Shown piece by piece: positions 40,901 to 49,427 of a stretch of 64,000 bases of DNA. Location: the NCBI GenBank assembly GCA_935421135.1, contig OW285193.1, positions 1,984,001-2,048,000 of the forward strand. The letters are read 5' to 3'. The notes beneath the pieces were generated by a model that saw only the letters and a program-made list of their open reading frames with translations, was not told where the DNA came from and did no database searches. Source of the stretch: Bugulina stolonifera (Eukaryota > Bryozoa > Gymnolaemata > Cheilostomatida > Bugulidae). Numbering within the stretch: position 1 is the first letter of the stretch; every line of letters begins with the position of its first letter. The translations under genes and the position numbers were made by a program.

Positions 40901-42377
40901 CTTAGTATGGTATAAGTAAGTGCTGATTAGGTCCCTTAGTATGGTATAAGTAAGTGCTGATTACGTCCCTTAGTATGGTATAAGTAAGTGCTGATTACGT
41001 CCCTTAGTATGGTATAAGTAAGTCTTGATTAGGTCAGTCAGTATGGTATAAGTAAGTCTTGATTAGATCAGCCATTATGGTATGAGTAAGTCTTGATTAG
41101 GTCAGTCAGCATGGTATAAGTAAGTGTTGATTACGTCCCTTAGTATGGTATAAGTAAGTGCTGATTAGGTCCCTTAGTATGGTATAAGTAAGTGCTGATT
41201 ACGTCCCTTAGTATGGTATAAGTAAGTGCTGATTAGGTCCCCTAGTATGGTATAAGTAAGTGCTGATTACGTCCATTAGTATGGTATAAGTAAGTCTTGA
41301 TTAGATCAGTCGGTATGGCATAAGTAAGTGCTGATTAGGTCAGCCAGTATGGTATGAGTAAGTCTTGATTAATTCTGATAAATGAGCCACTAATTACAGC
41401 CAGCTACACACGTTGGTATGTCCGATTCAAAGGCGGATGTCATGACGTAACGTGACACTCGCATATACATGAAATGTAAAGTTTGGTAAACTTGCATCTA
41501 CATCTATGCTTACATTTGTACCTATAAATTTAATATGTTTGGGCTAACAGTACAATATACCAATGGTAGTACTAAAGAGATGTTCATGTAGAACAACTTT
41601 TATACTCATACACACCATGTGCACTTGTATAACATCTTTCTTGGTTTTGCCATACGACAGATTGTTCACTTCGTCTGCACTTTTCATCTACCATTTCAGA
41701 GATAATTCATGGAGGTTGGAGTGAATGGGGAAACTGGACAGAGTGTCCGGCAAACTTCTGCTCATACGCCAATATAACTCGGAACCGAACATGTGACAGT
41801 CCAGAACCTAAAAATGGTGGGCGGTACTGTGAAGGAAACATAACTGATATGACATGGTGCTACAACGACAGCTGCCCCAGTATGTCCAAGCATTCTATCA
41901 TAATAATAATTGATAACACCTACTGTATTTAAAGAATAACATACTAGTTTTTGACGGTAAATAATTGCTTTGGTTGCTAGGAATAGACGAGGTTCTCTCT
42001 ATTACTAGTTAAGTGTCTATTAGACACAAGGGCAACTTTATGATTGCATGCCGGTTGCTAGCTGATACTAGTAAAGCTGACAGGGTGGGGACGCACTGTG
42101 GAACCTCTCTACATATGTTACTACTCACTTGGTTATCCAGTGTGATCTCTCCAACATAAGGCATCCATCAATCAGGAGACCTTTTTAATTACTCGGACAT
42201 TTCAATATCTTTCAGTTGCTGGTAACTGGACAGCTTGGAGTGAGTGGTCAAACTGTACCTACTATTGTGAAAGAGGAAGATCTAGGGAGTGTACTAACCC
42301 AGTACCTCAGTACTTTGGTGACTACTGTGTCGGCTCTCACAATGACTCGGAGCGGTGCTGGGAGAAACCTTGTGATA
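2967..42377 (+). CDS. Giant modular C-type lectin-like / thrombospondin-1 repeat protein, 5' partial (38 exons)
   Basis: Thirty-eight exons splice into 5898 nt (1966 codons) of uninterrupted frame. The order is CTLD-TSP1 repeated ten times, then a second terminal TSP1. CTLD modules are recognised by paired cysteines, a WIGL-type core (YWIGL, YWLGL, FWIGT, NYYLGLY) and a C-terminal C-x-F/Y pair (ICTF, VCQYG). TSP1 modules show W-x-x-W and the R-T/S-R-T/S-C core followed by a PxP-NGG-type loop. Every module starts and ends in phase 1; introns inside CTLD modules are phase 2. The first exon needs one base from an exon left of the window, so the N-terminus and any signal peptide are missing. No CTLD keeps a clear EPN/QPD plus WND sugar-binding set. 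The domains imply an extracellular adhesion or recognition protein; that role is inference. No known gene name fits this combination. Confidence 0.9.
3255..4136. repeat. 15-bp minisatellite
   Basis: About 58 copies of TGTACTTACACTGTA with T/C and A/G variants, inside the first intron of CTLD module 1 and ending about 20 bp before the next acceptor. Occasional TTTCACTTAATG variants recur about every 190 bp, hinting at a higher-order duplication. The open frames it creates (LTLYV or YLHCM pentapeptides) are artefacts of a 15-bp period. Confidence 0.93.
4302..4775. repeat. 43-bp minisatellite
   Basis: About 11 near-identical copies of a 43-bp unit beginning CATGGTACCTCATACTATAC, in the intron between CTLD-1 exons 2 and 3. 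It starts about 25 bp after the donor at 4277 and ends about 20 bp before the acceptor at 4798, so it fills nearly the whole intron. Confidence 0.93.
4953..4972. repeat. Poly-G tract (20 G)
   Basis: A run of 20 G lies in the intron after CTLD module 1. A second run of 15 G lies at 13327-13341. Such tracts are prone to length error in sequencing. Confidence 0.95.
5097..5232. mobile_element. MITE-like inverted repeat, degraded copy
   Basis: Imperfect palindrome with arms containing GAGCAGTCAGAGACTTGTTT and its complement AAACAAGTCTCTGACTGCTC, and a centre built on CCCTGACTGGGG. The same arm sequence, better preserved, forms the element at 51552-51755, so this is a second copy of one family. 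Confidence 0.7.
5519..5677 (+). CDS. TSP1 module 1 (single exon)
   Basis: A 159-nt exon between a TTCCTCAG acceptor and a GTAATA donor. It shows W-E-D-W, four spaced cysteines and the YRTRTC core. Phase 1 on both sides. The next coding exon is 3.4 kb away. Confidence 0.85.
6001..6072. repeat. 18-bp tandem repeat, four copies
   Basis: Four copies of CTGGTCTCTGGTCAGCAG in the intron before CTLD-2. Confidence 0.9.
6371..6580. repeat. 13-bp minisatellite
   Basis: About 15 copies of TTCTTGTACCTGC with C/T variants. The small open frames rich in LVPAS are produced by the repeat and are not genes. Confidence 0.92.
7065..7450 (+). pseudogene. Decayed LINE reverse transcriptase C-terminal fragment
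   Basis: Conceptual translation in shifting frames gives the characteristic tail of LINE ORF2 proteins: a SETWTLQK-like segment, then E-M-W-x-W-R-R-M-like residues, and finally RKKRWVGHVLRHEGL followed by EGKRPRGR (open frame 7236-7454). Several stops and frameshifts interrupt it, so it is dead. It corresponds to the part of ORF2 directly downstream of that seen at 14584-14825. Confidence 0.8.
8596..8690. repeat. 36-bp tandem repeat, under three copies
   Basis: Unit contains ACACATATAGACCTGTTAAA followed by GTGCAGGAACTAC; the last copy is diverged. Confidence 0.85.
8945..9005. repeat. 14-bp tandem repeat
   Basis: About four copies of AACCAGTAACGAGC, 70 bp before the CTLD-2 acceptor. Confidence 0.88.
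9073..21227 (+). CDS. CTLD module 2 (three exons spread over 12 kb)
   Basis: Exons 9073-9253, 15831-15935 and 21103-21227 (411 nt, 137 codons). Exon 1 opens VCPSNTHML and contains DRCVWKT and ASCQTTK; exon 2 holds NYWMGTKKADG; exon 3 ends ALCMWRPG. Donors GTAAGT, GTAAGT and GTAAGG all fit. The two internal introns, 6.6 and 5.2 kb, are by far the longest inside any module here and hold nearly all the large transposon insertions. Confidence 0.83.
9701..14579. mobile_element. 4.9-kb TIR element flanked by TTAA, no intact transposase
   Basis: The ends AGGACCCCTCTCAC (from 9701) and GTGAGAGGGATCCT (to 14579) are inverted copies with one mismatch, and TTAA stands directly outside both (9697-9700, 14580-14583). 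This fits a cut-and-paste DNA element with a TTAA target duplication, although the TIR is not a piggyBac consensus I know. No frame over about 66 codons is open inside, so it is non-autonomous or decayed. The interior is AT-rich with no recognised gene. A repeat block around 12640-12760 is shared with 30117-30280. Confidence 0.6.
14584..14825 (+). pseudogene. Decayed LINE reverse transcriptase fragment
   Basis: Frame-shifted translation gives FKYLGSPTTT, then EIRMSNASKAFGTRPRD, VWCNKDLHVAIKIK and VYRAIVLYALFSLLYG. This is the typical region of LINE ORF2 just before the YGxExW motif. At least one frameshift separates the first part from the rest. It abuts the right end of the 4.9-kb TIR element. 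Confidence 0.8.
14826..15040. repeat. Degenerate TAGTGTAGTACA-type repeat
   Basis: Low-complexity purine/T-rich stretch built of TGTGTAGTGTAGTACAT-like units, about 17 bp. A related degenerate tract follows the MITE at 15480-15800. No gene seen. Confidence 0.75.
15045..15475. mobile_element. 431-bp MITE with CAGTGGAACTT termini
   Basis: Left end CAGTGGAACTTACTTAA and right end, reverse-complemented, CAGTGGAACTTGCTTAA form TIRs in a TA-rich context, as in Tc1/mariner or pogo-type MITEs. Internally it is rich in AATTCAAA. A partial copy in opposite orientation lies at about 51773-51857. Confidence 0.75.
16016..18991. mobile_element. 3-kb palindromic foldback element with 6-bp target duplication
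   Basis: The left half (16016 to about 17290) and right half (about 17720 to 18991) are inverted copies of each other for well over 1 kb, diverged by substitutions and small indels. The outermost match is GGCCATTCCATGG and its complement. CTTGAG stands immediately outside both ends (16010-16015, 18992-18997), a clean 6-bp target duplication. There is no coding capacity. It sits in the second internal intron of CTLD module 2. A truncated relative of one end lies at 49793-49965. Confidence 0.85.
19225..19748 (-). mobile_element. Solo LTR or LTR-like relic
   Basis: Read on the minus strand it starts TGTTTTTGCACCCATG, contains a TATA-like stretch, then CAATAAAGACACATC (polyadenylation signal), and further on AGATGGGTCGTCTT and CTTTCATGTAATGC. 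The order matches a second copy at 53960-54479, with low identity overall. TATA followed by AATAAA is typical of a retrotransposon LTR. The far boundary is approximate. No internal coding region is attached. Confidence 0.6.
19886..20669. mobile_element. 784-bp non-autonomous TIR element (GGCGGATCCAGG ends)
   Basis: The ends CAGTGGCGGATCCAGG (19886) and CCTGGATCCGCCTCTG (20669) are inverted copies with one mismatch. This terminal motif is widespread in animal DNA transposons; I would guess hAT or PIF/Harbinger but cannot decide. Minus-strand frames (19767-20084, 20421-20672) cross its ends and show no transposase motif. Confidence 0.75.
20696..20735. repeat. Perfect 40-bp palindrome
   Basis: Two 20-bp arms meeting at TGATCA, with no mismatch. 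Together with the hairpin 18 bp downstream it forms a pair of perfect inverted repeats in the intron before CTLD-2 exon 3. Confidence 0.97.
20753..20792. repeat. Perfect 18-bp-arm hairpin with 4-nt loop
   Basis: Left arm ACATTTATTAATACGGCC, loop CCAA, and an exact complementary right arm. Only 17 bp separate it from the palindrome at 20696-20735. Confidence 0.97.
21458..21655. repeat. 15-bp minisatellite (EIPGM-coding frame)
   Basis: Thirteen copies of GGAAATACCAGGGAT with minor variants, in the intron between CTLD-2 and TSP1-2. The period keeps one frame open as EIPGM repeats, but no splice sites join it to the gene. Confidence 0.93.
22505..22669 (+). CDS. TSP1 module 2 (single exon)
   Basis: 165-nt exon after a CCCCATAG acceptor. 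It shows DGVWTTWTDW, CPGSPC, HRTRTCTDPAPRNGG and ADCPGD, a textbook TSP1 core. Donor GTTTGT is weak but in phase. Confidence 0.9.
23221..24019 (+). CDS. CTLD module 3 (two exons)
   Basis: Exons 23221-23449 and 23868-24019 (381 nt, 127 codons). Exon 1 opens GCHPNAETQ and has GQFCLMLL and LEYCQNE; exon 2 contains the WIGL equivalent VWFAGTKG and ends FPCVYAK. Here the usual second and third CTLD exons are one. The 3' end of exon 2 with its donor is the seed of the tandem repeat that follows. Confidence 0.86.
23998..24280. repeat. 34-bp minisatellite duplicating an exon end and splice donor
   Basis: About eight copies of a unit that starts TTTCCATGTGTTTATGCAAA and continues through the donor GTGTAAGTACTTTG. 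The first copy is the last 22 nt of the CTLD-3 exon plus its 5' splice site, and the rest are in the intron. Each unit therefore carries a copy of GTAAGT. Confidence 0.95.
24639..24803 (+). CDS. TSP1 module 3 (single exon)
   Basis: 165-nt exon after TACTACAG. It shows DGGWTDWGPW, KRTRTCTSPTP and SSCVGD. Donor GTACGT. Confidence 0.88.
25008..25866 (+). CDS. CTLD module 4 (three exons)
   Basis: Exons 25008-25209, 25483-25587 and 25751-25866 (423 nt, 141 codons). Exon 1 opens ECHTQSAEL and has GKCIFFG and VRYCKDTFG; exon 2 holds DYWLGLSS and a W-E-D-G turn; exon 3 has KCQSSDC and ends PICIFDK. All donors are GTRAGT-like. Confidence 0.88.
25894..26110. repeat. 64-bp tandem repeat, 3.4 copies
   Basis: Unit begins GGACTAATCATGTTAAGTTA and includes a GTCCACAGCG segment. 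It occupies most of the intron between CTLD-4 and TSP1-4; the last partial copy is diverged. Confidence 0.92.
26242..26406 (+). CDS. TSP1 module 4 (single exon)
   Basis: 165-nt exon after TTGTTAG. It shows GGGGAWSTWTACGNGC, TRSRSCDLPAE and GAACSSS. Donor GTGAGA. Confidence 0.88.
   Translation: MMEVVEPGVPGQHVVMDAPIQMLNLPAHGHVTYQLSHSIMVLPVVAVTWYRSPQ
26891..27600 (+). CDS. CTLD module 5, short (two exons)
   Basis: Exons 26891-27092 and 27482-27600 (321 nt, 107 codons), about 30 codons shorter than its siblings. Exon 1 opens ECPPNSYLL and has QKCYYII and DAKCKLDYG; exon 2 holds EFWIGTETY and ends AYICLVGD. The W-x-D-G turn and the cysteine that normally precedes the last one are missing, so the long-loop region seems deleted. 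Frame and phases remain intact. Confidence 0.82.
27645..27770. repeat. 38-bp tandem repeat, three copies
   Basis: Unit contains ATGTGTATCTACTGTATACA followed by CTCTTGATGTGCAG. It begins about 45 bp after the CTLD-5 donor. Confidence 0.9.
28175..28333 (+). CDS. TSP1 module 5 (single exon)
   Basis: 159-nt exon after CCCTGTCTAG. It shows DGGWTLWGNWADCNSGC, TRSRTCTNPKP and NCQGDSVQE. It is nearly identical in DNA to TSP1 module 6, including intron sequence just upstream of the acceptor. Confidence 0.92.
28761..29993 (+). CDS. CTLD module 6 (three exons)
   Basis: Exons 28761-28962, 29400-29486 and 29860-29993 (423 nt, 141 codons). Exon 1 has GTHRCIAIG and KACSSLYG; exon 2 NYWIGMNSFG with a W-T-N-G turn; exon 3 SHPYGGITC and PICTFTK. 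Closest relative is CTLD module 7, with the same exon sizes for exons 2 and 3. Confidence 0.9.
30117..30280. mobile_element. SINE-like repeat block
   Basis: The segments AATAGCAGAGCTA and TCCTAGAGCTGGATATTATT recur at 12640-12700, so this is dispersed. On the minus strand GGGTTGGAGTCCCACC resembles an internal Pol III B box. I cannot define the ends. Confidence 0.45.
30456..30614 (+). CDS. TSP1 module 6 (single exon)
   Basis: 159-nt exon after CCTTGTCTAG, nearly identical to TSP1 module 5 (DGGWALWGNWADCNSGC, TRSRTCTNPEP). It marks a recent tandem duplication of a TSP1-CTLD pair. Confidence 0.92.
30747..31442 (+). CDS. CTLD module 7 (three exons)
   Basis: Exons 30747-30951, 31072-31158 and 31309-31442 (426 nt, 142 codons). 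Exon 1 has GTHRCIAVD and ATACTDLYG; exon 2 NYWIGMDSLAD with a W-S-D-G turn; exon 3 THPYGGISC and PICSFSK. Paralogue of module 6. Confidence 0.9.
31612..31770 (+). CDS. TSP1 module 7 (single exon)
   Basis: 159-nt exon after CTTGTTACAG. It shows YGDWSSWTACTTGC, KRQRSCDSPS and SNCATP. Donor GTGAGT. Confidence 0.9.
32299..33675 (+). CDS. CTLD module 8 (three exons)
   Basis: Exons 32299-32485, 33232-33339 and 33551-33675 (420 nt, 140 codons). Exon 1 opens SCPSNTYLV and has AASCKAVYG; exon 2 has VVVGLKKEG in place of WIGL and a W-L-D-G turn; exon 3 has VICAGSTDTC and ends FACQFGK. Donors GTAAGT and GTAAGT-like. Confidence 0.87.
33966..34139 (+). CDS. TSP1 module 8 (single exon)
   Basis: 174-nt exon after ATTTCAG. 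It shows DGIWGEWSALSAC, VRTRTCDNPQP and EDCPGDD. Donor GTAGTT. Confidence 0.88.
34345..34700. repeat. 11-bp minisatellite
   Basis: About 32 copies of ACTGTGCATTC or ACTGTGTATTC in the intron between TSP1-8 and CTLD-9. The open frames of 155-168 codons here are repeat artefacts. Confidence 0.94.
35107..36274 (+). CDS. CTLD module 9 (three exons)
   Basis: Exons 35107-35296, 35790-35912 and 36156-36274 (432 nt, 144 codons). Exon 1 opens ECLADTTIW and has LGCLFHG and HSHCTSTFG; exon 2 has SYWIDLQFS with an E-N-W-D-G end; exon 3 has MTCSSTEECLW and ends WICQFSQ. Confidence 0.87.
36275..37014 (+). other. Intron between CTLD-9 and TSP1-9
   Basis: 740-bp intron. I see no gene or recognisable repeat in it. 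Small open frames (36319-36504 minus, 36542-36769 plus) lack any domain signature. Confidence 0.7.
37015..37185 (+). CDS. TSP1 module 9 (single exon)
   Basis: 171-nt exon after GGTAACAG. It shows DGIWSSWSEWANC, IRSRTCDNPEPKLNG and EPCPSYG. Donor GTACGG. Confidence 0.9.
37394..38327 (+). CDS. CTLD module 10 (two exons), most canonical
   Basis: Exons 37394-37580 and 38104-38327 (411 nt, 137 codons). Exon 1 has QKCLYFM and AAQAACPTE; exon 2 fuses the two usual 3' CTLD exons and reads NYYLGLYYN, NFSNWASSQPSTEHC, WEWQTADC and VCQYG. This is the nearest to a full CTLD with WIGL, W and C-W-x-C-like spacing, but QPS replaces QPD and WQTADC replaces WND, so calcium-dependent sugar binding is doubtful. 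The exon end seeds the large 34-bp array downstream. Confidence 0.92.
37762..38056 (+). mobile_element. tRNA-derived SINE-like element
   Basis: Perfect Pol III internal promoter boxes: TGGCTCAGTGG (37769-37779) and GGTTCGAATCC (37823-37833). The flanks do not close into an acceptor stem and the sequence continues into an unrelated body and an AT-rich AATTTAAATTTA tail, as in a SINE. It lies in the intron inside CTLD module 10. Confidence 0.7.
38311..41372. repeat. 34-bp minisatellite copying the CTLD-10 splice donor, about 60 copies
   Basis: Unit of the form CAGCCAGTATGGTATAAGTA followed by AGTGTTGATTATAT, with a second subfamily carrying CCCTTAGTATGG and GATTACGT. The first unit is the last 17 nt of the CTLD-10 exon plus its donor, so nearly every unit repeats GTAAGT. 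Blocks of several units recur about 640 and 310 bp apart, showing higher-order duplication. An 858-bp transposon interrupts it at 38982-39839. Confidence 0.95.
38982..39839. mobile_element. 858-bp transposon inserted in the minisatellite
   Basis: The array is broken between two copies of TTAGG (38977-38981 and 39840-39844), a 5-bp target duplication. The ends CATGGCCGTAACT and, reverse-complemented, CAGGGGGGTAACT are imperfect inverted repeats, followed by GC-rich GCCGCCTGAACTTTTT-type segments at both ends. Inside (39180-39245) are tRNA-like boxes TAGCGTAATTGG and AGTTCGAATCCC. Non-coding; class uncertain, either a TIR element or a composite with a SINE head. Confidence 0.7.
41700..41879 (+). 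CDS. TSP1 module 10 (single exon)
   Basis: 180-nt exon after CATTTCAG. It shows GGWSEWGNWTEC, RNRTCDSPEPKNGG, RYCEGN and an extra pair WCYNDSC at the end, so it has the six cysteines of a full TSP1. Possible N-glycosylation sites NWT, NIT, NRT, NIT and NDS are visible. Donor GTATGT. Confidence 0.9.
42216..42377 (+). CDS. TSP1 module 11 (single exon, last certain exon)
   Basis: 162-nt exon after CTTTCAG. It shows GNWTAWSEWSNC, YYCERGRSREC, GDYCVG and ERCWEKPC, a six-cysteine TSP1. It follows TSP1-10 without a CTLD between. The donor GTATGT begins the tandem repeat downstream. Confidence 0.9.
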
Positions 42378-43175
42378 GTATGTATAATTGTATAATGTAT
42401 AGTTGTATAATGTATAATTGTATAATGTATAATTGTATAATGTATAATTGTATAATGTACAGTTGTATAATGTATAATTGTATAATGTATAATTGTATAA
42501 TGTATAGTTGTATAATGTATAATTGTATAATGTATAATTGTCTAATGTATAGTTGTATAATGTATAATTGTATAATGTATAGTTGTATAATGTATAATTG
42601 TATAATGTATAATTGTATAATGTATAATTGTATAATGTATAGTTGTATAATGTATAGTTGTATAATGTTTAATTGTATAATGTATAATTGTATAATGTAT
42701 AATTGTATAATGTATAATTGTATAATGTATAATTGTATAATGTATAATTGTATAATTGTATAATGTATAGTTGTATAATGTATAGTTGTATAATGTATAA
42801 TTGTATAATGTATAATTGTATAATGTATAATTGTATAATGTATAATTGTATAAACTATAATTGTATAATGTATAATTGTATAATGTATAATTGTATAATG
42901 TATAGTTGTATAATGTATAATTGTATAATGTATAATTGTATAATGTATAATTGTATAATGTATAATTGTATAATGTATAATTGTATAATGTATAATTGTA
43001 TAATGTGTAATTGTATAATGTATAATTGTATAATGTATAATTGTATAATGTATAGTTGTATAATGTATAATTGTGTAATGTATAATTGTATAATGTATAA
43101 TTGTATAATGTATAATTGTATAATTGTATAATGTATAATTGTATAATGTATAATTGTATAATGTATAGTTGTACT
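42378..43175. repeat. 15-bp minisatellite starting at the splice donor
   Basis: About 53 copies of TATAATTGTATAATG (some TATAGTTG). It begins directly at the donor of the last TSP1 exon and in the same reading frame, so read-through would add MYNCI/MYSCI pentapeptides for about 130 codons to a stop near 42764. Confidence 0.95.
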
Positions 43176-45684: not shown

Positions 45685-45690
45685 TTTATT
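45685..45690 (-). promoter_or_regulatory. Polyadenylation signal AATAAA of the selenoprotein gene
   Basis: AATAAA on the minus strand about 390 nt past the stop codon and about 125 nt past the SECIS-like hairpin, so both would be in the 3' UTR. Confidence 0.5.
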
Positions 45691-45813: not shown

Positions 45814-45886
45814 TAGCAGTATGGGTATCATCAGTGCCTAGCCTCAGTTCCCTGATGCAGCTGGGCACATCATTAATATACTGCTA
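45814..45886 (-). promoter_or_regulatory. SECIS-like element in the 3' UTR
   Basis: On the minus strand: helix I TAGCAGTAT pairing exactly with ATACTGCTA (9 bp); internal loop; 5' ATGAT facing 3' TGAT, which gives the U-U, G-A, A-G, U-U quartet of SECIS elements; helix II GTGCC/GGCAC, one C-A mismatch, then AGCU with GGCU pairing; and an apical loop starting 11 nt after ATGA. Helix length, quartet and position match known SECIS design. The conserved apical AA is not at its usual place (GCAT is there instead); an AA lies farther round in CAG-GGAA-CTG. It would direct selenocysteine insertion at the TGA at 48482-48484. Confidence 0.7.
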
Positions 45887-46074: not shown

Positions 46075-49000
46075 TTAATTGGATGCTGCAGCAGCACCTT
46101 CTGCAGAACTATCACCGTCTGCTGAAGATATACTCAGGGCCTTCAGTACATCAGATGGAGCCACATGTTCAGCAACATTCGTCTGTACAAAATTGAGCAA
46201 TACCTTTCCTCCCTTCTCAATTACAAGAGTTCCTCCATTTTGTAGCCCATCTCCTTTTAGGTCACCACCCAGTTTCTTTGACTGCAAAGTTCAATATTGA
46301 ACAACATATTTACATAACCAACAGTGTTCACCATGAGACGTTCTACTACTACTACCACTGCCACGACTACTACTACTACTACTACTACTACAGCCACTAC
46401 CACTACTACTACCACCACCACTACCACTACTACTACCACCACCACTACCACTACTACTACCACCACCACTACCACTACTACTACCACCACCACTACCACT
46501 ACTACTACCACCACCACTACCACTACTACTACCACCACCACTACCACTACTACTACATCCACTACCACTACTACCACTACTACTACAGCCACTACTACTA
46601 CTACTACTACCACTACTATTACAGCCACTACTACCACTACTACTACCACTACAGCCACTACTACCACTACTACTACTACTGCCACTACTGCCACTACCGC
46701 CACCACCGCCACCACCACCACCACCACCACTACTACTACAGCCACTACCACTACTACCGCCACTACCACTACTACTACCACCACCACTACCACTACTACT
46801 ACTACAGCCACTACCACTACTACTACTACAGCCACTACCACTACTACTACCACCACCACTACCACTACCACTACTACTACCACCACCACCACTACTACTA
46901 CCACTACAGCCACCACTACTGTTAACACAATGCCTATACTACTGATTCCACTTCTACTGACAACACTAACCTCACTGTATCTGTCCCGTGCCAGTTTGGT
47001 GAATAATTGTCCAATGACAGAGAAGAACGACATTCTGGAAATGTACAAGTAGTATTAATATTATACTTATTATAACTAAAGTATATGATCCTCGATCAAC
47101 TTTGATTAAACTTTCAGGTTACTGTCTCCGTGGGTCTAAGTGCACGTGCAGTGGCTGCATACCGGCTTTGAAAATGGCCTAGTGAGATAAGCTTCAACCA
47201 GACACAGTTAACTTGGAAATGGACTCTGACACCTCTACAGAGGTCTGAGAGAGCTACACAAATGTGCATTAGGTCTAACCAAGACAATGCCTATTACAGT
47301 ACACAGGTCCACTCCTTATGCACAGTGTACTCTTGGCTCTAACACTGAGCATAACTCCAAAGTAGTCAAGACAATGCGATATTGGGGTGAGATGTCGTGG
47401 AGGCCTAATAGTTCTGAAGACATTTGGGTTCAACGTAAGTTATTATTTCCTTCATCCTAATGTGCAGTGTATTTGGGGAGGGGGTATTACCCACAGTGTA
47501 TTTGGGGAGGGCGTATTACCCACAGTGTATTTGGGGAGGGGGTATTACCCACAGTGTATTTGGGGAGGGGGTATTACCCACAGTGTATTTGGGGAGGGGT
47601 TATTACCCACAGTGTATTTGGGGTGGGGGTATTACCCACAGTGTACTTGGGGAGGGGGTATTACCCACAGTGTATTTGGGGAGGGGGTATTACCCACAGT
47701 GTATTTGGGGAGGGGGTATTACCCACAGTGTATTTGGGGAGGGGGTATTACCCACAGTGTATTTGGGGAGGGGGTATTACCCACAGTGTATTTGGGGAGG
47801 GGGTATTACCCACAGTGTATTTGGGGAGGGGTTATTACCCACAGTGTATTTGGGGTGGGGGTATTACCCACAGTGTACTTGGGGAGGGGGTATTACCCAC
47901 AGTGTATTTGGGGAGGGGGTATTACCCACAGTGTATTTGGGGAGGGGGTATTACTCTAATTTTACTACATTGGGTGCTAGCAATATACTATCTACTAAGT
48001 ATTTACTATACAATGTATAAAAACACTAACCTGTTATACTGCATGTCTTTGTAGCACTGTTTCTTGGAATCAATATACAACTCTATAAAGTAAGAGAAGA
48101 TAACTACCATGTATCATATGTTGTACAATCATGGAAATTACAACCGTTTATCATGTCGGCTACAAGACAACACAACAGCAGCTCCAAAACACCTCCGTTG
48201 TTTAGATGAATTCCTAATCTAAGAGATGAGATTATTATTTTAGTTTCAAAAACTCTGTCATGTCATCGACAGTTGCCACTTTTTACTTAACTCATGCTCA
48301 TGTCAAACATACGCATGAATTGATCAACATAATGCACATCCTTACCTCCATCAAAGAACTTCCCATCAACAAATTCCTGGACACCGAGTTCCTCCAGCCC
48401 TATGCCTATCATACGCACGCGGTGAGCATCAAGCTGAGGTTTCAGCGAGCTCAACTCACGTGCGGATAGGCGACAGTATTGTCATCCAAATCTGCGTAGA
48501 AAGGTGATGACACAGGATGACTCCGCCCAGAAAGTTTCCAGTGGCACTTCCTGTAATTGGAATCTACTAGTTAGTGTTACATTTCACACATAACCAGGCA
48601 CAGTGTGTTCTGTTGTCTCTTTGTAAGCATGTGGAGTAAATAAAAGACAAGGATAATCAATAGATGGCGTTGGATATGACAACTGGGAAGACGCCTGATC
48701 AGCAGCAACAGGAATTGTCTAGCAATAGAAACATCAGGTACTTTAGGATCTTTCAAAGTTGTCTTCCCAGAACAAGTAACACATAAAAATCCAATGCAGC
48801 ATAAAATGACAATCTAGCATGCCCCCATTTAGTAGGAGTTGTGCTCTCGTGATAACTGTGAAATTAGGAGTTGTGTTCTAGCTGACAAAATTAGTACAAG
48901 GTAAGTGAAACTATCCTATAATGTCCAGTAACCAAGTGGGTGACCCAGTTATTACCTGTCATTATAATCACACAGGAACAATAAAGCTGGCAGATAAAAG

Positions 49001-49427
49001 TTTAATATATTTGATAGTGTTCATCCATTCTGAAACTAGTCAAACAATGGCAAGTTAGAAATAGGCGCATGAGTCCTATTATTGTCAGTAAATAAGCTGC
49101 TATGCTGAAAAATAATTTGGAGCGCAGGAGAATCCCGGAGAACGGCCACTTAATTGTTCTTAGATGACGGGCAACAGTAATTTCAACAATCCTTCTACTG
49201 TAACTACTCAATATTAGCGATTGACCCTGAACGTTCTGACAACAATGCTAAAGATCCAAAAGTGCCTGTTCTAGTACTTTTTCAGCAGACTGATGTAGAG
49301 TCCTAAATATTAGTGCAATAGATACCTACCATATAATCTAGTAACAGGTGATTGAGTTCGACCTTACCTGCCCTGTGACCACAGACTTCACGAGGTTCTT
49401 GCCGATCTTTGAAATTTTATCCGCCAT
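46075..49427 (-). CDS. Selenoprotein U / PRXL2B-like thioredoxin-fold protein (five exons, in-frame TGA = Sec)
   Basis: Minus-strand exons 49427-49368, 48550-48346, 48082-48031, 47034-46971 and 46281-46075 total 588 nt: 195 residues plus stop, close to the roughly 200 of vertebrate PRXL2B (prostamide/prostaglandin F synthase). Start MADKISKIGKNL; exon 2 has FLRRFG-TGA-QYCR, then ARELSSLKPQL, VRMIGIG and GVQEFVDGKFFDG; exon 3 ELYIDSKKQCYKD; exon 5 GDLKGDGLQNGGTLVI and GGKVLLNFVQ. All splice sites are GT-AG and phases agree. The TGA stands at residue 43, at the first Cys of the family's CxxC, giving UxxC. Peroxiredoxin-like 2 proteins reduce substrates through this thioredoxin-type motif; the exact substrate here is inferred. 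Standard annotation would break or truncate this gene at the TGA. I am confident of the family, and fairly confident of recoding because of the SECIS-like hairpin. Confidence 0.92.
46345..46920. repeat. ACT/ACC trinucleotide repeat
   Basis: About 190 triplets of ACT and ACC with scattered GCC, inside intron 4 of the minus-strand gene and ending about 50 bp from exon 4. Plus-strand poly-Thr and minus-strand poly-Val frames are repeat artefacts. The short hydrophobic run after the Thr stretch on the plus strand is the antisense of exon 4. Confidence 0.93.
47465..47955. repeat. 29-bp G-rich minisatellite
   Basis: About 17 copies of CAGTGTATTTGGGGAGGGGG followed by TATTACCCA, in intron 3 of the selenoprotein gene. 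Each unit has two G runs of four and five on the plus strand. Three open frames of 186-195 codons result from the 29-bp period and are not genes. Confidence 0.95.
48482..48484 (-). promoter_or_regulatory. In-frame TGA, predicted selenocysteine codon
   Basis: The codons around it read FLRRFG, TGA, QYCR; the frame is open for 22 codons upstream and 45 downstream in the same exon, and the conserved family residues continue on both sides. Confidence 0.85.

Follow-up and report, generated by a model that had tools for sequence, protein, structure and literature searches.

The PRXL2B-type gene (prostamide/prostaglandin F synthase, SelU3) of the cheilostome bryozoan Bugulina stolonifera is very probably a selenoprotein gene in which UGA codon 43 is decoded as selenocysteine (Sec) via a SECIS element in the 3′UTR. 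A chance TGA at this position is unlikely, because it is the sole inner stop of the gene and falls on the catalytic residue, the 80 nt that follow it fold more stably than all of 500 synonymous recodings, and a SECIS-shaped hairpin is located in the gene's own 3′UTR. A first-pass annotation of the sequence had likewise judged a random nonsense mutation unlikely, and the position of the TGA on the redox site and the RNA structure past it both agree with that view.

The gene is situated in a 64-kb window, the whole stretch of DNA that was analysed, corresponding to positions 1984001–2048000 of chromosome 7 (OW285193.1). It has five minus-strand exons extending from 49427 to 46075 of the window, all introns are GT-AG, and the exons join in frame to give 195 codons before a TAA stop (Table 1). 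Exon 2, whose limits coincide with those of the segment flagged by the first-pass annotation, translates as EVPLETFWAESSCVITFLRRFG*QYCRLSARELSSLKPQ..., with a single TGA and no further stop. Intron 3 contains a 29-bp minisatellite (47465–47954; 16.9 copies, 96% alike) and intron 4 an ACT/ACC-rich array of ~570 bp (46345–46920) that adjoins exon 4. Elsewhere in the window, a rightwards open reading frame piece at 42150–42390 (WTAWSEWSNCTYYCERGRSRECTNP) is thrombospondin type-1 repeat-like by eye and is followed by a repeat-derived frame.

Table 1. Features of the PRXL2B-type gene (positions are those of the 64-kb window).
Feature	Position	Strand	Details
Coding exon 1	49368..49427	-	ATG at 49427-49425; in frame, then gtaagg; MADKISKIGKNLVKSVVTGQ
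Exon 2, carries UxxC site	48346..48550	-	Borders ag/GAAGTG...ATGGAG/gtaagg
Codon 43: in-frame TGA, putative Sec codon (U-Q-Y-C)	48482..48484	-	Opposite the first Cys of the 9us9 CxxC motif
Stem-loop, proposed Sec redefinition element (SRE)	48404..48471	-	10 nt past the TGA; 80-nt window -39.0 kcal/mol
Exon 3	48031..48082	-	In-frame join, GT-AG
Exon 4	46971..47034	-	In-frame join, GT-AG
Exon 5	46075..46281	-	TAA stop at 46077-46075
Proposed SECIS	45814..45886	-	Helix I TAGCAGTAT/ATACTGCTA; quartet ATGA/TGAT; helix II GTGCCCAGCT/GGCTAGGCAC (9/10 pairs); apical GCATCAGGGAACTGA
AATAAA polyadenylation signal	45685..45690	-	3′ of the proposed SECIS, which sits between it and the stop codon

The spliced protein matches the Pfam family AhpC-TSA_2 with 73.3 bits (cut-off 27), and the only solved relatives found by a PDB search are two prostamide/prostaglandin F synthase chains, 9us9 (E 1e-44) and 9usa (E 2e-43), both alignable with it over residues 5–180. 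The domain and the full-length similarity to PRXL2B support assignment of the predicted protein to PRXL2B / SelU3. The UxxC redox motif is present as TGA-Q-Y-C, with codon 43 opposite the first Cys of CVVC (FGCVVC) in 9us9; 9us9 thus has CVVC, and 9usa SVVS, where the Bugulina protein has UQYC. The first-pass annotation had rebuilt a full PRXL2B-family protein from these exons, interrupted only by a TGA at the first Cys of CxxC and continuing with QYC; the AG/GT exon borders, the in-frame joins, the Pfam match and the alignment with 9us9 bear out both the reconstruction and the location of the TGA. The genome comprises 27 contigs and 234,951,659 bases (235 Mb). The PRXL2B protein has four matches in its own genome and, since all of them fall in this same locus, no second copy or Cys paralogue was found by this protein-versus-genome search.

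The genome contains genes for tRNA-Sec, SECISBP2, eEFSec, SEPSECS and SPS2, located exon by exon. The tRNA-Sec (77.1 bits; anticodon tca, UCA) is the sole match above cut-off among 19. SECISBP2 is represented by two exons (L028 and L033) on one strand and 1.6 kb apart, with the L033 peptide having SECIS-binding protein 2 (7zjw_B) as its best PDB match (E 3e-15; next best 5e-4), and eEFSec by an exon (L060) whose best PDB match is the Sec-specific elongation factor 5izk (E 7e-15; best EF-Tu 5e-8). The top three matches to the selB profile are of EF-Tu or EF-1A type by eye and were rejected as eEFSec. At the family cut-offs the selB and selD profiles have no match in the genome, which is expected because the matches are to single exons. 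SEPSECS has five exon matches at one place (E 3e-28). There are two selenophosphate synthetase genes, one reading LKG-TGA-GCK (L054, C1 ~11.106 Mb) and the other a Cys form reading LKG-TGT-GCK (L051, C3 ~14.855 Mb); the former, SPS2-Sec, is followed on the same strand, ~0.7 kb past the last matched exon, by a 32.2-bit match to SECIS (Rfam cut-off 35). A glutathione peroxidase (GPx) gene used as an in-genome control has a TGA before GLTDQNYKQL and a same-strand SECIS of 35.2 bits, above the Rfam cut-off. From the tRNA-Sec, SECISBP2, eEFSec, SEPSECS, SPS and GPx genes we infer that Bugulina stolonifera uses selenocysteine; the first-pass annotation would have given up its reading in a genome lacking this machinery, and the SECISBP2, EEFSEC and tRNA-Sec genes that it listed are all found.

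Several other loci in the genome are related either to the PRXL2B family or to Sec usage. A SelL-like AhpC-TSA_2 gene (L003 ~940–2134, C5, plus strand; Pfam 47 bits, exons joined by eye) has two in-frame TGAs three codons apart, HFA-U-LP-U-RDH, corresponding to UxxU, and a SECIS-like hairpin 3′ of its stop (L034 1674; apical bulge CAA) that comes from a noisy version of the scanner described below. Two close copies of a gene labelled PRXL2C/SelU2-like by eye are located at ~24.07 and ~23.99 Mb of C1 (L001 and L002); L001 has HFLCFTAKEYVEDLAKIPRE, in which the first CxxC position is Cys, not TGA, and the second is Ala. Four SECIS elements, three of them above the Rfam cut-off, are clustered at 23.036–23.077 Mb of C3 (L012–L014, L016), and a deiodinase-like C-terminus (by eye) is upstream of one of them; the Sec exon or codons of deiodinase-like genes were looked for in L045–L048 and not found. 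The Rdx family profile (PF10262; SelW/SelT/SelH) has no match in the genome, short exons being easily missed.

The 3′UTR of the PRXL2B gene contains a hairpin with the geometry of a SECIS carrying an AUGA/GA quartet. It has a helix I of 9 pairs, a 4-nt and a 7-nt loop flanking the AUGA/UGAU quartet, and a small top helix. The quartet, the length of helix II and the small top helix are common to this hairpin and the Rfam consensus for eukaryotic SECIS elements, and the spacing is that of the SECIS_1 consensus except that the loop separating the 3′ quartet from helix I has 7 nt (consensus 5). The apical bulge is GCA, not AA or, rarely, CC, a feature that is usual rather than invariant; UAAA occupies this place in each of the genome's four SECIS elements that exceed the Rfam cut-off. 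Vertebrate SECIS elements as described in PMC3316567 have apical AA nearly throughout, with CC instead in placental-mammal SelM and mammalian SelO, and the GCA of the Bugulina hairpin differs from both the typical and the variant forms.

The first-pass annotation had called for a SECIS search on the minus strand, and the outcome is divided: a SECIS-like hairpin is present in the 3′UTR, but it lacks the apical AA and Rfam SECIS_1 has no match in the PRXL2B gene region up to E 10, in the whole window, or in the hairpin alone, for which Rfam returns three weak non-SECIS matches far below their own cut-offs. The hairpin is retained as a SECIS candidate because Rfam also scores the SPS2 SECIS below cut-off and finds nothing at the SelL-like gene. 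A geometric SECIS scanner with the apical loop unconstrained, its thresholds fixed when the hairpin was already known from visual inspection, was run at five settings on both strands of the window (128 kb) and gives the hairpin (45886–45814) as the sole match at each setting; in the loci examined it recovers four of the eight Rfam SECIS matches and nothing else. An earlier scanner with too long a quartet-to-quartet distance missed the hairpin and gave seven other matches in the window, after which the range was corrected from the SECIS elements of the genome, and a looser version was noisy, with six matches in L034 and L035 together, one of them the Rfam-confirmed GPx SECIS.

A count of one match is unremarkable, because 120 shuffled windows average 1.05 matches each at the loose setting (helix I of at least 6 pairs; 0.06 with at least 9). 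Shuffled sequence totalling 15,360 kb yields two equally good matches (score at least 10.5, helix I at least 8), and the expectation of a chance match on the correct strand of the ~390-nt UTR is ~3 in 1000 at the loose setting and ~5 in 100,000 for one equally good. The proposed SECIS is therefore unlikely as a chance match by virtue of its place and quality, not of the number of matches. Its folding energy has a z score of -3.09, with none of 200 shuffles as stable, and the centroid structure is SECIS-shaped.

A second RNA structure lies within exon 2, where a very stable 68-nt stem-loop, closed at the base by GCCUAUC/GAUAGGC, is positioned a few nucleotides 3′ of the TGA, as in Sec redefinition elements. 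The 100 nt past UGA-43 have z scores of -4.82 against dinucleotide shuffles and -5.35 against synonymous shuffles that keep the protein and the codon set of the gene (0 of 150 as stable), and the corresponding values for the first 80 nt are -6.25 and -5.56 (0 of 500 as stable). Along the coding sequence, a sliding scan gives z below -1.3 only in windows starting at codons 33, 41, 44 and 49, and among 400 random 80-nt segments of the 64-kb window (repeat arrays excluded) none reaches -4, the lowest being -3.75. Similar structure follows the TGAs of GPx (z -4.1) and SPS2-Sec (-4.79) in the same test, whereas the SPS-Cys paralogue (+0.97) and the two TGAs of the SelL-like gene (+0.1 and +0.7) have no such stem-loop; a UGA-adjacent stem is thus present in three of the four Sec genes tested. 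When synonymous codons are resampled from a pool of 283, z is -5.62 for PRXL2B, -4.32 for GPx, -2.73 for SPS2-Sec (5 of 500 as stable) and +0.30 for SPS-Cys. It is this stem-loop past UGA-43 that speaks most strongly against a random nonsense mutation.

The very strong stem-loop, the apical GCA in place of AA and the lack of an Rfam match would also fit a gene whose SECIS has decayed, with the stem-loop after UGA-C driving Sec-independent readthrough by a near-cognate tRNA and insertion of an ordinary amino acid. Readthrough of this kind has been proposed for hymenopteran SPS1-UGA. According to PMC4561486, among SPS genes these structures are largest in the SPS1-UGA genes without a SECIS, and the SELENON SRE yields some Sec-independent readthrough. 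This explanation is improbable here, as the SECIS retains its helices, quartet and spacing to a degree beyond chance, the Sec machinery is present in the genome, the stem-loop is shared with the TGA-bearing GPx and SPS2 genes, and insertion of any ordinary residue but Cys would leave the enzyme without its nucleophile. Under the preferred reading of UGA-43 as a Sec codon, it is a tentative and rather doubtful proposal that the bryozoan PRXL2B decodes UGA with a SECIS from which the apical AA has been lost, and that the unusually strong UGA-adjacent stem-loop makes up for this loss. If this were true, the apical adenines would be dispensable given a strong SRE, and SRE and SECIS strength would trade off in evolution; the combination of an atypical SECIS with a strong SRE offers a natural test of the apical bases, whose exact role is given as unknown in PMC3316567.

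The in-frame TGA occupies a site where homologs have Cys, and the residues opposite codon 43 among 90 homologs are Trp (12), Cys (9), a gap (8) and a single Lys attributable to poor alignment (P0027). The remaining 60 start past codon 43. Of these, 14 do so at codon 44 or 45, but many of the 60 have a start much further along and may be truncated for unrelated reasons. The Cys forms are those of Patiria, Branchiostoma and seven insect entries. A late start or a gap is seen in, among others, Bugula neritina, Watersipora subatra, the molluscs Haliotis, Crassostrea, Mercenaria and Solemya, the nemerteans Lineus and Tubulanus, and the annelid Capitella. The Trp entries, considered as protein entries only, are most readily explained by translation of TGA under code 4. 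The Bugula neritina (identity about 84–88%) and Watersipora subatra entries start only at Met67, as if annotation pipelines had met the same stop. With a late start or gap in 68 of the 90 homologs, pipelines seem to shorten these genes or splice around the TGA, and the annotation of the PRXL2B redox enzyme is probably wrong in many invertebrates. The homologs with Trp at codon 43 or a start after it add to the support that the first-pass annotation had drawn from the family and the TGA position for reading this codon as Sec.

A TGA is one base from TGC or TGT, such that a pseudogene or a nonsense allele of a former Cys gene could arise by a single chance change. Such an origin is most improbable given that the gene is the sole copy found, its splice sites and 194 other codons are all intact, the TGA is exactly on the redox site, the RNA structure just past it is beyond synonymous chance, and 12 of the 90 homologs have Trp there while 14 start one or two codons later. 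A sequencing or assembly error in place of a true TGC or TGT can hardly be credited, since the assembly is described as HiFi-based with a QV of 55.5 (30 scaffolds, 234,982,697 bp; PMC10213821) and the Bugula and Watersipora entries begin as though the same stop were encountered.

Decoding of UGA-43 as Sec would, by analogy with known selenoprotein biology, proceed with SECISBP2 binding the AUGA/UGAU kink-turn quartet of the 3′UTR hairpin and delivering eEFSec and Sec-tRNA(UCA) to ribosomes that have paused on this codon. The stem-loop 10 nt downstream may slow the ribosome and disfavour termination. The predicted product has a thioredoxin-like fold with Sec43-Gln-Tyr-Cys46 as a UxxC redox pair, in which Sec43 would be the attacking residue and Cys46 the resolving residue (selenenyl-sulfide), and it probably reduces endoperoxides or peroxides, as its Cys counterparts do.

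SelL is reportedly a UxxU family, described in PNAS in 2007; the Bugulina PRXL2B has UxxC, scores 52 bits with the NCBIfam model SelL_rel_redox (below the cut-off of 120), and is distinct from the SelL-like UxxU gene of the same genome. The occurrence of Sec in SelU in some lineages, stated in the first-pass annotation, is published for invertebrates, with the subfamily to be specified as SelU3: Sec in SelU3 (prostamide/prostaglandin F synthase) of invertebrates was reported in 2012, with three of eight invertebrate SelU3 proteins being Cys forms (sea urchin, amphioxus and sea squirt) and the others Sec (PMC3473315). In vertebrates, all Sec-containing SelU proteins are placed in the SelU1 group (PMC3316567), and one selenoprotein SelU is listed for Schmidtea (PMC3828610). 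A bryozoan Sec PRXL2B, a GCA bulge and a UGA-adjacent stem-loop (SRE) in SelU3 were not found in a literature search that had most subscription journals outside its range. So far as found, Sec in SelU3 is already known, and the bryozoan case, the atypical SECIS and the strong UGA-adjacent element are new. With the Bugulina gene, the Sec form of PRXL2B extends to a further phylum, in line with the view that SelU3 of invertebrates outside the insects and deuterostomes commonly contains Sec. In kind, the stem-loop fits the elements described for SELENON, SELENOT and SPS2 (PMC8704476, PMC4561486, PMC9599142). The Bugulina gene shares its family with the SelU3 genes reported in PMC3473315, the six main species of which do not include a bryozoan, and differs from them as presented there in its SECIS without an apical AA and in the UGA-adjacent stem-loop described here.
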